From a virus, in IMG/VR virus record IMGVR_UViG_3300027763_000008, positions 1 through 40,203 of that record: DNA of 40,203 nt; one strand, written 5' to 3'. The notes under the pieces were generated by a model that saw only the letters and a program-made list of their open reading frames with translations, did not search any database and was not told the origin of the DNA. A program made the translations under genes and the position numbers. Shown here one piece after another: positions 29,495 to 33,660 of the stretch; positions within the stretch are counted from its first letter, which is position 1, and each line of letters opens with the position of its first letter.

Positions 29495-30021
29495 TCCAAA
29501 CCCTTTTCAGTTCTAATCCAAGCATATGAGCCATTCACACTAAACCCACGTTTCTTGTGAATTTTCATAAACCCATCATGTTCGGCACGAATAGAAGTGG
29601 AACATACCACTGGTATATACCATTGGCTTGCCCACAGTATATGTTGGTCAATCATCTCATTTATCAAGCGCACACGCAAGCGGGGACTCAATTCTAAGTC
29701 AACATGGTGGAACTTGGCATTGGATATTTCTTCATTGGCATAGGTGGTATACCCGCCTCTGTCAAACCAACAGTAACCTAGCAGCGCATCATTAACTTCT
29801 GCTTGTCCTAGAAAAGTGTCAATTATTTTGGGTCCACGACAGACCGCAATAAACTCTTTGCTCTTGTCAAACAGTTGGACAGTAGTGGCCACAGTAACGT
29901 GTTTACGGAATACTGCTCTGTCTCTAGTGAGTATGCCATCAGCCTCATGCCCAAAGACTGAGTCTGCCATGTCCACAATATCGTCCACATCATGCAGTGG
30001 GTGTGCCAATGTCCATTCCAT
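29479..30021 (-). CDS. GNAT-like acetyltransferase-type protein, first late gene
   Basis: About 180 residues from the ATG at 30021, which has AGGA eight bases before it. A longer frame starting at 30138 would begin on the predicted -10 box, so I reject it. The C-terminal half fits the GNAT fold: a strand with LLGYCWFDRGG, a helix with RVRLINEMIDQHILWASQW, a strand IPVVCSTS, and HKKRGFSVNGSYAWIR at the end. Such proteins recur in podovirus late regions, sometimes named internal virion protein. The acetyl-CoA loop is poorly preserved, so activity is uncertain. Confidence 0.68.
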   Translation of the reverse strand: MEWTLAHPLHDVDDIVDMADSVFGHEADGILTRDRAVFRKHVTVATTVQLFDKSKEFIAVCRGPKIIDTFLGQAEVNDALLGYCWFDRGGYTTYANEEISNAKFHHVDLELSPRLRVRLINEMIDQHILWASQWYIPVVCSTSIRAEHDGFMKIHKKRGFSVNGSYAWIRTEKGLECLKK

Positions 30022-30137
30022 GCTATTCCTATATAAGATATTGGGACTCAATTTGGTCTTTGGCAAAGCAAGATGGAAAGCCAGAAAAAATCTTGCATCG
30101 ACATCCTTGAATGCTGGCTTAACGTCCCAACGAAACA

Positions 30138-30167
30138 ATTATAGCTACCCAAAAAGTTTTAAGTAAA
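30138..30167 (-). promoter_or_regulatory. Sigma70-like promoter of the late unit
   Basis: On the minus strand a perfect -10 TATAAT (30138-30143) lies 18 bases after TTTACT (30162-30167, four of six matches to TTGACA). The transcript would start near 30131 and give a leader of about 110 bases before the GNAT-like gene. It suggests late transcription by host RNA polymerase, in agreement with the lack of a phage polymerase. Confidence 0.7.
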
Positions 30168-30195
30168 AATTTTTATATAGGATTCTTATACAGAG

Positions 30196-30204
30196 TTATC
30201 CACA
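30196..30204 (+). promoter_or_regulatory. Perfect DnaA box
   Basis: TTATCCACA, the strongest DnaA-box sequence. A degenerate copy, CTATCCACT, follows after two bases. It lies about 30 bases upstream of the late promoter -35 box, in non-coding DNA. It may mark a host-DnaA-dependent origin or let DnaA act on the late promoter. Confidence 0.5.
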
Positions 30205-30219
30205 GGCTATCCACTTGCT

Positions 30220-30240
30220 ATAGGTAGAAACCCTAATAGA
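30220..30240 (-). promoter_or_regulatory. TATTAGGG dyad, late-side copy
   Basis: On the minus strand CTATTAGGGTTTCTACCTATAG forms an imperfect inverted repeat (CTAT-AGG/CCTATAG). TCTATTAGGGTTT is shared base for base with the copy at 37552-37563. It lies 53 bases upstream of the late promoter -35 box and points the same way. Confidence 0.5.
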
Positions 30241-30884
30241 ATGATTACGGGGCCATCATCCAGCCCTTGGGAAGGCAGGTAGCTTACCAACCCAGATAAA
30301 CGTACTGAATCCATCAGTCTCTCTAGTAAGCAATGAACGGGAACATACAGGTGGAGCCCATCAGGGTTAAGTTAGATAAACAAGGTGCTACTTCTTTAAA
30401 GAAGAAAAAACAGTGGATGCCATAGTTCGTCCACAGTTAACCATCACACAATCCCCACCAAGACAGTTACCTAAAGAGCAGTGTTGTTTGTGTACAACAG
30501 GAAAAGTTTTAGAGAAATTTCGGGGATGGGGGAGTGGGCCCCCCCTTTTTGAACCAGTTCCAGTGCTACCCCCCCCCCACCAGTGTGTGCCTAGTGTGTG
30601 CCATGGGGGGTTTGTGAATGAGAGTCATTCTCATTTAGGGGGTGTGAGGGCGCAGGGAAAAGGGCAACACTAGGGGCCCACTCACTTAGTCACTCTTAAA
30701 AAGCCTGGCAATGCAGACAAACCCAGTGCAAAGCCCTGTAAATACTAGGTCTGTGGTGTTCTAAGGTTATGCAATAAATGCATAGTTTGGGGCTTGCTTG
30801 CTTATGCCACTGTGTGCCAGGTTATGCCCTGTTGAAATTATCTTGAATAATCCCAAACAATCAAGTGTAATTGACTACTAACAT

Positions 30885-30940
30885 TGTATTAGGGTTAACC
30901 CTTAAGGGTTTAAAGCTGTGTTTATTAGGGTTTGTCCCTA
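30885..30940 (+). promoter_or_regulatory. Two TATTAGGG dyads upstream of the GP88 unit
   Basis: TTGTATTAGGGTTAACCC begins at 30885 and runs into the palindromes AGGGTTAACCCT (30891-30902) and AACCCTTAAGGGTT (30897-30910). A second copy, TTTATTAGGGTTTGTCCCTA, lies at 30921-30940. Both precede the first gene of the rightward unit by about 80-130 bases. They look like operator or activator sites; no confident promoter hexamers were found nearby. Confidence 0.55.
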
Positions 30941-31019
30941 GTGTTTTTTGTGTTTTGCAGCGTTATATTTACTGCAAGCCTGTAGTTCCAGGTGTTAACT
31001 AAGCCCGAAAGTAAATATC

Positions 31020-31358
31020 ATGCAAAACGTAAACCCTCTTATCGCTGCAGCACTCGCACCATTCGCACCTGCTGCCACTGATCCTACAATGCAAGCCCTT
31101 GTCGATCAGTATGGATCGCTAGATTCTCACATTAAAGCCCTGCAGGGTAATCTTGAAATGCTTAAGAGTGCCATTAAAGCGCAGGGCGCAGGTAAGCACG
31201 AAGGCTCTATTTATCGTGCCACTGTATACGAAAGCGCAGGGCGCACAATTACAGATTGGAAAGCTGTCGCAGAGCATTTCAATCCCTCTTATCAATTGAT
31301 CACAGCGCACACCAGCACAGGTGCTGCGACACTGACAATTAAACCCACAAAGATCTAA
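31020..31358 (+). CDS. Unknown protein, first gene of the GP88 unit
   Basis: A 112-residue protein. Residues 1-20 are Ala/Pro-rich; residues 25-55 form a helix (QALVDQYGSLDSHIKALQGN); the C-terminal half is beta-like (YRATVYESAGRTITDW; ITAHTSTGAATLTIKP). Similar ends occur in small phage proteins of unknown role. The start has no AGGAGG but carries CCGAAAGTAA (31005-31014), the same ten bases found before the GP88 gene. The gene is richer in GC words (GCGC, CTGCAG) than the late genes. Confidence 0.78.
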   Translation: MQNVNPLIAAALAPFAPAATDPTMQALVDQYGSLDSHIKALQGNLEMLKSAIKAQGAGKHEGSIYRATVYESAGRTITDWKAVAEHFNPSYQLITAHTSTGAATLTIKPTKI

Positions 31359-31368
31359 GGTGCGCACC

Positions 31369-31452
31369 ATGGATAAAAACGATATATACGATATTTTAGC
31401 CGCTGTGGCTGTTGGCCTAATGTTGGCCTTTTTTCTCACAATTAGGGGTTAA
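31369..31452 (+). CDS. 27-residue membrane peptide
   Basis: The product begins MDKNDIYDILAAVAVGLML and ends FFLTIRG: a single transmembrane helix with an acidic start and Arg end. AAGGTG lies eight bases before the ATG. It fits between the first gene and the next small gene, two bases before its start. Function unknown. Confidence 0.65.
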   Translation: MDKNDIYDILAAVAVGLMLAFFLTIRG

Positions 31453-31454
31453 AA

Positions 31455-31607
31455 ATGGCCTATACATTAAAGCGATCAATTACGGGCTTGTCATTCGAAG
31501 ATATCAAGCGCATATATGACAATAATCCCAATATGACATTAAGAGAATTGTCTAATCTGACAGGTTATGCAATCCCTTTTTTAAAAAACCTGCTGCTAGA
31601 TAAGTAA
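31455..31607 (+). CDS. 50-residue helix-turn-helix-like protein
   Basis: The product begins MAYTLKRSITGLSFEDIKRI and contains MTLRELSNLTGYAIPFLKNL, which reads as a helix-turn-helix (a small DNA-binding unit). AGGGG precedes the ATG by seven bases. It could regulate this unit or the neighbouring control region, but is unproven. Confidence 0.65.
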   Translation: MAYTLKRSITGLSFEDIKRIYDNNPNMTLRELSNLTGYAIPFLKNLLLDK

Positions 31608-31618
31608 AGCTTACCCTG

Positions 31619-31660
31619 CAGACACTAGATATCTGGTGTCTGTGCGGTGCGCTTTGCACC
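31619..31660 (+). promoter_or_regulatory. Two hairpins before the GP88 gene
   Basis: Bases 31619-31642 form a 24-base dyad, perfect except for one T-G pair (arms CAGACAC and GTGTCTG around AGATATCT). A second hairpin, GGTGC/GCACC around GCTTT (31646-31660), follows. Neither has a T-run. They are candidates for an operator, RNA-processing site or translational control of the GP88 gene. Confidence 0.55.
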
Positions 31661-31685
31661 CAAAACCTAGACCGAAAGTAACATT

Positions 31686-32351
31686 ATGCGAATTATCCCC
31701 ATTATCCCAATGACCAAAAAACAAGCTGCCACTGTCTGTGGCACTCTCACAAGCACAAGCAAAATGCCTTGTAACTCTTACAGTCTGCCAACAGAGGCTT
31801 GCATAACAGGTTTCAAAATGGCACAGATTAAAGGCTCTATTTGCTCTATGTGCTATGCGGATAAAGGTTTTTATAAAATGTATGCGAATAATATTAAACC
31901 TGCACAATTTGCCCGTTTAGACAGCATATTAGGCGCACACTGGGTTTCCGGTATGGTGTCGCATATTGGAAATGATGCCTATTTTCGCTGGCATGATTCG
32001 GGTGATCTGCAAAGCCTAGAACATTTTGAGAAAATTGTGTCTGTGTGCGCTGCCACACCCAAAACAAGTCACTGGCTGCCAACTAGGGAATACGGAATTA
32101 TTAAGGCATTTATTGAAAAACATGGAAAGAATGCAATCCCTAAAAATTTAACTGTGCGCTTGTCTGCCATGTACCCTGACAAGCCCGTTACTGTGCCTGT
32201 ATCGCTGCAGGGTATCGCTGGTGTGACTGTGTCTAATGTGCATACATCAAAACCCATGGGGAATGTATGCAAAGCCCCTGCACAGAATGGAGAGTGCAAA
32301 GATTGCAGATTGTGCTGGTCTAATGCTGTGGTGTCATATGCGCTGCATTAA
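31686..32351 (+). CDS. GP88-family protein (Cys-rich, function unknown)
   Basis: A 221-residue member of the phage GP88 family. Marks are SKMPCNSYSLP (residues 25-35), CSMCYADKG (53-61), FRWHDSGDLQ (100-109), HWLPTRE (129-135) and a C-terminal cluster with Cys 195, 204, 207 and 210 (C-x8-C-x2-C-x2-C). The Cys pattern suggests a bound metal or iron-sulfur cluster. The family is found in actinobacterial and many aquatic phages; no activity is established. The start uses CCGAAAGTAA instead of a normal ribosome site. A terminator follows. Confidence 0.85.
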   Translation: MRIIPIIPMTKKQAATVCGTLTSTSKMPCNSYSLPTEACITGFKMAQIKGSICSMCYADKGFYKMYANNIKPAQFARLDSILGAHWVSGMVSHIGNDAYFRWHDSGDLQSLEHFEKIVSVCAATPKTSHWLPTREYGIIKAFIEKHGKNAIPKNLTVRLSAMYPDKPVTVPVSLQGIAGVTVSNVHTSKPMGNVCKAPAQNGECKDCRLCWSNAVVSYALH

Positions 32352-32365
32352 TTAAATAAACCTTT

Positions 32366-32392
32366 AAAAGCCCGTTTTTACGGGTTTTTTTT
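32366..32392 (+). terminator. Terminator of the GP88 unit
   Basis: AAAAGCCCGT pairs with ACGGGTTTTT around TTTT, followed by further T for eight in total. It ends rightward transcription 15 bases after the GP88 stop. Confidence 0.92.
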
Positions 32393-32700
32393 GGTCTGCA
32401 GGTGCTGGGTTATCCCTGTGCCTGTTTTTCGCTTTGCTGGGTGTCTGGCAGGGCTTTGCTGTGTCTGTCTGTGTGGCAGGTGCTGTGCTTTGTCTGTGTG
32501 CCTGTTTTTAAGGGCTTGCAGGTGCTGGGTGTGTGTGCGCTTGTCTGTGTGCCTGGGTGTGGCTTGTCTGTGCCTGTGGTGCGCTGTGTGTGGTGTCTGT
32601 GTGCCTGTAGTGGCAGGTTTTGCGCTGTGTGGTGCTGCAGGTGCTGCGCTGTGGTCTGCGCTTATGCGCTGCGCTGTGGTGCTTGGGTGTGCTTTTATCA
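32393..32700 (+). repeat. A-depleted GT-rich block with internal repeats
   Basis: About 300 bases with roughly 12 A on the plus strand, including 60 bases (32521-32580) with none. TGTCTGTGTGCCTG occurs exactly at 32491, 32542 and 32594 (period 51-52), and TGCAGGTGCTGGGT at 32397 and 32517. Open frames through it on both strands are Cys/Val- or His/Thr-rich and lack ribosome sites, so I treat it as non-coding. It lies directly after a terminator and before iterons. The block could be an origin, a pause or termination zone, or a source of a G/U-rich RNA. Confidence 0.75.
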
Positions 32701-32771
32701 ATAAAAACAAGGGTTTACAGCATTTTTTAAATGAAATGGATTATATGAGAGATAATATACCCATTAACTTT

Positions 32772-32834
32772 TTGATTATCTCGATTATGTGCCCGCCACT
32801 TTTCGATTATATCGATAATATTATGTCGATTATC
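32772..32834 (+). repeat. Nonamer iterons TCGATTATN
   Basis: Five copies of a nine-base unit: TTGATTATC (32772), TCGATTATG (32781), TCGATTATA (32803), TCGATAATA (32812) and TCGATTATC (32826). Copies 1-2 and 3-4 are direct tandem pairs. The stretch is AT-rich and non-coding. Clustered short direct repeats in AT-rich DNA are typical of initiator or partition-protein binding sites. Confidence 0.75.
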
Positions 32835-32856
32835 TCGTGTTCTGCCAATTTGCAAA

Positions 32857-32895
32857 AGGACCCCCCCCTCAAAAAGTTTTGGGGCCTCTTTTTTT
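32857..32895. terminator. Likely bidirectional terminator between converging units
   Basis: A C-run (AGGACCCC) pairs with GGGGCCT (bulged A) over an A/T loop, followed by seven T on the plus strand and TTTT on the minus. It lies just beyond the last gene of the leftward early unit. Confidence 0.7.
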
Positions 32896-32906
32896 GTCAG
32901 GGTTAA

Positions 32907-33266
32907 TTATGGAAATCTCAGAAGATAAAGTGTCGAATCTATTAGCTGCTGGATTTCATCTGCAATGTTCTGTATCTCAGAATCCTGCGGTAATACTTTG
33001 CGCTTTTCCTCAAAGTACTCTGACAACTCATGCAACTCACGTTTGCCAGTGTCGGCAGGTGTGTGGTATGTCGCAGGGAATTCTAGAGTTGAATCAAACT
33101 TGCCTTGGATGGCTTCGACTAGATCATCGACCTTGCCTGGTAACTCTTCGTAAAATGTGCCAAGGGCTTTATGTTCCGCATAGGATTTTGATTGCCAATG
33201 CAAAATGTGGGTGTTGGTCGCAGAGTGCAACAAGGTCAGGATTAGATCACCAATTTCATTGTCCAT
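32907..33266 (-). CDS. Ferritin-like helical protein (DUF5856-type)
   Basis: A 119-residue helical protein. It contains LLHSATNTHILHWQSKSYAE (residues 12-31), HKALGTFYEELPGKVDDLVE (32-51) and EIQNIADEIQQLIDSTLYLL at the end. The repeated His/Glu in a helical bundle resembles small Dps-like phage proteins. It could bind iron or protect DNA, but residue-level metal sites are not clear. It is the last gene of the leftward early unit and overlaps the nuclease gene by 11 bases. Confidence 0.72.
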   Translation of the reverse strand: MDNEIGDLILTLLHSATNTHILHWQSKSYAEHKALGTFYEELPGKVDDLVEAIQGKFDSTLEFPATYHTPADTGKRELHELSEYFEEKRKVLPQDSEIQNIADEIQQLIDSTLYLLRFP

Positions 33267-33660
33267 ATGGGACTCCCAAGTGGGTTAAGACACGCCTTGC
33301 TGCTTCTCTGCGCCAAGGTCGCAGGGTTATATTATCTGCTAAATCCATCCATGCGTGAAGTTGTCTTTTGTAGGCTTCCTGAAATGCTAGATTTTTGGTG
33401 TCGTAATCGGTATTTGAAGAGTCTAACCATGTGTGGCAATGGTAGCACCCCCACACGGAATGATGGTCATCTGCCTTAATTGAGCGACCTTTGCCATGAA
33501 TTAATAGGTTGGAGTGACAAGCTACAGTTGTGGAACCCTCCCCCCCCAAACAATTTTTGGCCACCTGTAAAAGACAAGGCTCACCTTCTGCCAATTCTAG
33601 AAGCTTTTTGTCTCTGTAATATTCATGCTTTCCAAAGCCACGTTTGCGCCAACCGCTCAT
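33256..33660 (-). CDS. YbcO/DUF1364-type nuclease
   Basis: A 134-residue protein resembling YbcO, a lambdoid HNH-like nuclease. Marks are KKLLELAEGEPCLLQ (residues 18-32), Cys 29 and Cys 37, TTVACHSN (44-51), a GKG-x4-DD segment (56-65) and CYHCH (72-76). In lambdoid phages this gene sits near RusA-type resolvases and takes part in recombination or repair; the same neighbourhood occurs here (RusA at 34925). It overlaps the small gene upstream (ATGA). Confidence 0.8.
   Translation of the reverse strand: MSGWRKRGFGKHEYYRDKKLLELAEGEPCLLQVAKNCLGGEGSTTVACHSNLLIHGKGRSIKADDHHSVWGCYHCHTWLDSSNTDYDTKNLAFQEAYKRQLHAWMDLADNITLRPWRREAARRVLTHLGVPYGQ

Follow-up and report, generated by a model that had tools for sequence, protein, structure and literature searches.

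A GT-rich and nearly adenine-free block at positions 32393-32700 of a viral genome of 40,203 nucleotides (IMG/VR record IMGVR_UViG_3300027763_000008; "the window" below is this whole stretch) probably encodes, on its plus strand, tandem RNA hairpins rich in G·U wobbles, as judged from folding and from comparison with the closest relatives. We propose, with a probability of just under one half (about 0.48), that this array acts as a tandem-terminator insulator between two convergent operons, the production of RNA from the block and its role in termination or insulation being what the sequence leads us to infer. We establish for the block a strand-specific structure, covariation, an excess of terminator-like hairpins and a constant location.

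Organization of the locus

The window is a podophage-like genome with portal and large terminase (TerL) genes, and among GenBank records MW202484, which represents an uncultured podovirus of Manatee Spring, comes nearest to it (TerL 85%). The block lies behind the GP88 gene (31686-32351, plus strand; PF17338, profile match E 7e-20, also supported by relatives), the last gene of a rightward operon. The intrinsic terminator of this operon, T1 (32366-32392, plus strand), which consists of AAAAGCCCGTTTTTACGGG followed by T8, was found by the terminator scan and is also present in relatives; the block begins directly after it, in agreement with the first-pass annotation, which had placed the block behind a terminator. 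No 300-bp duplex in the window is more stable than the block, and the AT-rich stretch that abuts it (32693-32772) is among the weakest 0.03% of the window's 80-bp duplexes. There follow ATTATNTCGATTAT repeats (32775-32833), which are iteron- or operator-like and are replaced or absent in other block-bearing phages, and a second rightward terminator, T2 (32861-32890, plus strand; scan match 32867-32884), a C-tract hairpin with a T-run that recurs where the DUF5856 operon ends. The DUF5856 gene itself (32907-33266, minus strand; PF19174, identified by profile match and relatives) closes the convergent leftward operon, which also encodes YbcO and RusA nucleases and a primosomal protein. Long C-tracts of the form GACCCCCCCC...TTTTGGGGCC occur at 32861-32890, where they form T2, near 33540 and at 30537-30580, and relatives, too, have the T2-forming C-tract at the 3' end of their DUF5856 operon.

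Composition and internal repetition of the block

The 308 bases of the plus strand comprise 13 A, 58 C, 120 G and 117 T. Of all 300-base segments of the window, the one at 32381 has the fewest A, with 11; the minimum outside the block is 35 (mean 83, sd 13), so that the earlier description of a nearly A-free, GT-rich and strand-skewed block holds by a wide margin. The positions of A within the block likewise confirm the A-free core that had been described, with no A from 32521 to 32608. As previously listed, two 14-mers are repeated, TGTCTGTGTGCCTG in three copies (32491, 32542 and 32594, at spacings of 51 and 52) and TGCAGGTGCTGGGT in two (32397 and 32517), and TGTGTGCC recurs in the 30-31 kb control region outside the block, at 30584, 30595 and 30811. 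A copy of the T1 tail and the start of the first hairpin is present at 32504-32530. Repeated 8-mer pairs within the block number 127, against 23 on average and at most 52 in 200 dinucleotide shuffles, in line with the suggested growth by repetition. The proposed 51-52-bp period survives in part: both spacings exist, but they are one among several (D1-D8), and there is no clean tandem array.

The base composition and internal repetition of the block are confirmed as real. Assembly error, raised earlier as a possible source of the block, is excluded because independent metagenome contigs (L001, L004, L005, L006 and L097) carry homologous blocks. The view that there is no gene here was also sustained when a conserved reading frame was looked for: most indels that separate the window's block from those of its close relatives have lengths not divisible by three (19/21 against L001, 17/17 against L005, 11/12 against L006 and 3/4 against L004), and this indel phase rules out a protein-coding gene. 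The open frames on both strands are trivial, since DNA free of A has no stop codon in any of its six frames: on the plus strand each would require an A, and on the minus strand a T.

Related phages carry blocks of different vocabulary at the same place

Relative loci were collected from viral contigs via GP88, DUF5856 and TerL. The search for the same block in related phages, as advised in the first-pass annotation, found a homologous block directly after T1 in the close relatives L001-L006 and L097, and most other loci of the TerL lineage that reach the site have their most A-depleted stretch directly behind the terminator, in different words. These vocabularies include GGCC/ATTGTGGGCC (L084, L085, L087, L094, L098, L101 and L174), GTGCGCC (L135 and L138), GTGCGCGTGCG (L132, L153, L163 and L177), GGTGCCTGGGTGG (L133 and L171) and TGCTTTGCCTG (L137), with further vocabularies in other loci, and block length ranges from 80 to 650 bp across relatives. 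A strong A-poor stretch lies on the operon strand in 33 of the 59 distinct loci with a DUF5856 flank and on the other strand (T-poor) in 3; the 26 weaker loci include near neighbours such as L082, and the post-terminator spacer was at the same place in all eight of those read out. Among the 51 loci where this spacer could be cut out, the operon strand has G>C in 48 and T>A in 49. The block is therefore the end of a continuum of post-terminator spacers and not a unique oddity.

Host words, such as Chi or uptake sequences, were considered as the vocabulary; vocabularies differ between phages whose DUF5856 proteins are 87-93% identical (TerL 93-98%). A TerL profile search of 84,980 genomes for a host or prophage gave no match, and a nucleotide-level search for relatives among GenBank phages returned none that was informative.

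Predicted folding of the plus-strand RNA into a row of hairpins

On computational folding, the plus-strand RNA of the window's block forms a row of hairpins: H1 (32399-32424, followed by TTTTT), H2 (32431-32454, loop GUGU) and H3 (32461-32483, loop UGUGU), all three of which align across relatives, and then the hairpins H4 (32494-32521), H5 (32547-32584), H6 (32604-32641) and H7 (32646-32682), which are predicted from the single sequence. In the eight closest sequences (the window, L001-L006 and L097), fold z relative to dinucleotide shuffles ranges from -2.9 to -8.2 on the plus strand and from -0.2 to -3.0 on the minus strand; T1 was mostly excluded from the folded segments, those of the window, L001, L006 and L097 starting inside the T1 3' arm and including a few T1 bases.

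For H1-H3, covariation was assessed in an alignment of six distinct, close sequences in which the hairpins are separated by spacers. Here 96.2% of cells are paired, compared with 36-49% when the structure is slid, and the covariation score is 0.189, compared with a slid maximum of 0.057. H1 has two-sided changes at three pairs; in three sequences, for instance, G-C has become U-A. H2 shows a matched double deletion, L001 and L002 both lacking one particular base pair, with its base gone from either arm. All one-sided changes that preserve a pair do so via G·U, and RNAalifold agrees with the H1-H3 helices. Pair-count measures among the six close sequences are modest relative to column shuffles (3 versus 1.9). 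Pairing in H1-H3 is thus kept through sequence change, as in structured RNAs, among few sequences. Compensatory evolution of terminator stems is documented in a published study (PMC5381666).

Outside the window's own block type, the evidence for structure is weaker. The plus RNA is stabler than the minus RNA in 48 of the 51 spacer loci, and mean z over all spacers is alike on the two strands (-1.8 and -1.6); z lies between -0.9 and -3.5 in GGCC-type blocks, and in the vocabularies of L133, L171, L155 and L132 structure is no greater than in their own shuffles.

The selected molecule is most likely the plus-strand RNA, because a G·U pair becomes A·C on the other strand and is poor in DNA. Since G and U have two partners each and A and C only one, selection for wobble-tolerant pairing would drive the sequence toward G/U and away from A, consistent with the base shares of the block (T and G ~38% each, C 19%, A 4%).

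Terminator-like hairpins and the proposed insulator

Downstream of T1, another 113 rightward terminator-like hairpins occur in the spacers, compared with 64.6 in shuffled sequence, and such hairpins are found in 42 of the 51 loci; in the same spacers, leftward ones number 14 versus 10.8. Because the rightward hairpins exceed the shuffles and the leftward ones hardly do so, we propose that the block is a tandem-terminator insulator. RNA polymerase escaping T1 would make the block RNA, whose successive hairpins between T1 and T2, with many G·U pairs in their stems, would pause and release the polymerase, at least H1 having a full U-tract; rightward transcription would thereby be kept from running antisense into the leftward replication operon. 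If only structure is selected, words could turn over and the array could grow by copied hairpins, and wobble stems would drift to a G/U-rich, A-poor state, giving the observed skew. The insulator reading agrees with where the block lies and on which strand its hairpins form, with how loosely its sequence is constrained, and with its growth by copying. T1 looks strong and readthrough into the block may be small, and the block may be a back-up barrier against runaway transcription that related freshwater phages keep in different words.

Like intrinsic and tandem terminators between convergent genes, this junction of convergent operons has strand-specific hairpins directly before U-tracts (T1, H1 with TTTTT, and T2). 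Unlike them, the block is a 300-nt array of about seven hairpins made mainly of G, U and C, most of them without a run of five or more U, and its vocabulary differs by phage subgroup.

The strand-specific structure with covariation, and the place between two terminators, as for an element made only on readthrough, would also suit a functional structured RNA, either a regulatory 3' element on T1 readthrough or a separate small or protein-binding RNA. The sib element of phage lambda is a structured retroregulator RNA beyond the terminator tI that is reached only on readthrough, and CsrB/RsmZ-type sponge RNAs are tandem hairpin arrays. The block resembles the former as a structured RNA that would be made only if the terminator, here T1, is read through, and the latter in its tandem hairpin architecture. 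It differs from sib in that nothing in the sequence points to processing by RNase III, to antitermination or to an influence on the gene upstream, and from the sponges in that no separate transcription unit is visible and in that GGA, which CsrA/RsmA sponges carry in hairpin loops, occurs 0 times in the block. Moreover, loops and sequence are not conserved across vocabularies, as a binding or pairing RNA would require, there is no predicted rightward promoter near the block, and none of 4227 Rfam families matched it at the gathering threshold or at a relaxed one. We therefore consider a functional RNA of this kind unlikely.

Vocabulary turnover, lengths of 80-650 bp and repeat growth could also be features of a spacer without selected function, growing by slippage and duplication under strand-biased mutation (A to G and C to T on an exposed strand), with hairpins as by-products; in agreement with this, purine content stays roughly constant while A drops and G climbs. 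However, fold z and terminator counts lie above composition-preserving shuffles, the paired deletions and two-sided changes point to selection on pairing, and nearby non-coding DNA (30001-31000) has no such skew, all of which makes the absence of function distinctly unlikely in our judgement.

The leftward strand as a possible Rho-dependent terminator

The minus-strand RNA of the block would be C-rich, G-poor and unstructured, and thus rut-like, which raises the possibility that the block is a Rho-dependent terminator that stops leftward transcription before it runs antisense into GP88. Rut sites sit in C>G bubbles without stable structure, and mapped Rut sites are U/C-rich (PMC12350095). The leftward RNA of the block has the first of these features: it is the window's strongest leftward C>G stretch at both 150 nt (39, versus 26 for the best separate site) and 300 nt (64 versus 34), in 18 of 19 relatives it ranks among the highest 2.5% of 100-nt windows, and it folds weakly, at -0.17 kcal per nt. 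A consensus scan of 32366-32907 also found no leftward intrinsic terminator. Unlike rut sites, however, the leftward RNA is nearly free of U (4% on the minus strand) and has no U/C-rich anchor motif, and many block-bearing relatives have leftward intrinsic terminators. We regard Rho-dependent termination here as rather unlikely; it could act alongside the hairpin insulator, because a single duplex can yield a hairpin-forming RNA in one direction and an open RNA in the opposite one.

We do not claim that the block stands in for a missing leftward terminator, because the anticorrelation seen with the consensus scan (Fisher p 0.001) vanished in an energy-based scan (Spearman 0.07, p 0.6).

R-loop and origin readings

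The first-pass annotation had suggested an R-loop or unpaired-strand state, as at an origin. This was not borne out: the RNA:DNA versus DNA:DNA energy of the plus-strand RNA lies at the 20th genome percentile, that of the leftward RNA being better at the 2nd, the duplex is the most stable of the window, and self-folding of the plus-strand RNA competes with an R-loop. There are no G-run clusters and no quadruplex pattern in the block, in which G runs do not exceed 3, and an R-loop or G-quadruplex region was rejected.

The iterons named as a neighbour of the block also failed to hold up as a constant partner, there being no constant unit: the repeats beside the block differ in L003, L153 and L163, and in L132 and L177 the block occurs without an iteron region and the C-tract lies ~30 bp behind it. 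Downstream of the operon terminator, palindromes such as AAGTGAGTGCTCAC or GTGAGTACTCAC replace the ATTATNTCGATTAT repeats in L007, L068, L079, L150 and others, and TAGGGTAAACCC stands at their place in L003, L059, L153 and L163; these elements are possibly exchangeable operators or iterons. A replication origin that includes the block, in which iterons and an easily melted duplex would flank the stable block and an R-loop would form on the GT-rich strand, would account for the abutment of the most stable 300-bp duplex on an 80-bp stretch that is among the window's weakest and is accompanied by ATTATNTCGATTAT repeats, but given the ordinary R-loop energetics of the plus-strand RNA, its competing self-folding and the absence of the AT-rich repeat region from L132 and L177, we consider it very improbable.

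The GP88 module shares the block vocabulary

Phage by phage, block 7-mers are enriched in the 2.2 kb left of the block (normalised density 22.7 for a phage's own 7-mers versus 11.2 for foreign ones), with no enrichment in the late genes (6.8 versus 6.5) or the leftward operon (8.7 versus 8.0). A GP88- or DUF7227-type protein is encoded in every module that was profile-searched (the window, L098, L163, L171 and L177). The GP88 cassette and the block might form one co-evolving unit with a private vocabulary, the block then being a new class of hairpin-array RNA with cassette-tied words and no generic terminator; its words could, for instance, be recognised by, or pair with, cassette products. 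We find this reading doubtful.

The shared private vocabulary occurs on both strands and in coding and control DNA, in the window at 30167-32351 and in the corresponding 2.2 kb of L107, L113, L145, L171, L133, L137 and others. About 2.8 kb left of its block, L171 has a short stretch of block vocabulary in reverse orientation, located in the control region that separates the late operon from the GP88 module. Hairpins were rejected as the source of the module vocabulary, as the module genes of the window are not unusually folded (plus-strand z -0.89).

Across 19 phages of the lineage, with a codon-shuffle control, GP88 does not avoid 6-bp palindromes (186 versus 191.6 expected), and in TerL they are strongly depleted (165 versus 352 expected), an avoidance shown by the structural genes of the phage. 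The early genes DUF5856, RusA and DUF1376 of the window also look palindrome-neutral. In CRP-2, CRP-4 and Mithridates (set L191, L194-L196, including MW202796), the GP88 homologue is located close to the annotated start of the genome, with a Dcm methylase as neighbour in CRP-2 and an antirestriction gene in MW202796. This position, together with the nearby Dcm methylase or antirestriction gene, suggests that GP88 belongs to an early, perhaps counter-defence, cassette.

Implications

Selection for hairpins that tolerate wobble pairs in the RNA of one strand could give rise to a composition as bizarre as 300 bp with almost no A. The combination of G>C, T>A and strand-asymmetric folding energy provides a simple signature for such elements in unannotated phage DNA. 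Relatives make it possible to test both the vocabulary that block and cassette share and the failure of GP88 to avoid palindromes. If the insulator reading is true, these phages would hold a natural library of differently worded hairpin barriers, useful for learning how termination depends on structure and not on sequence.
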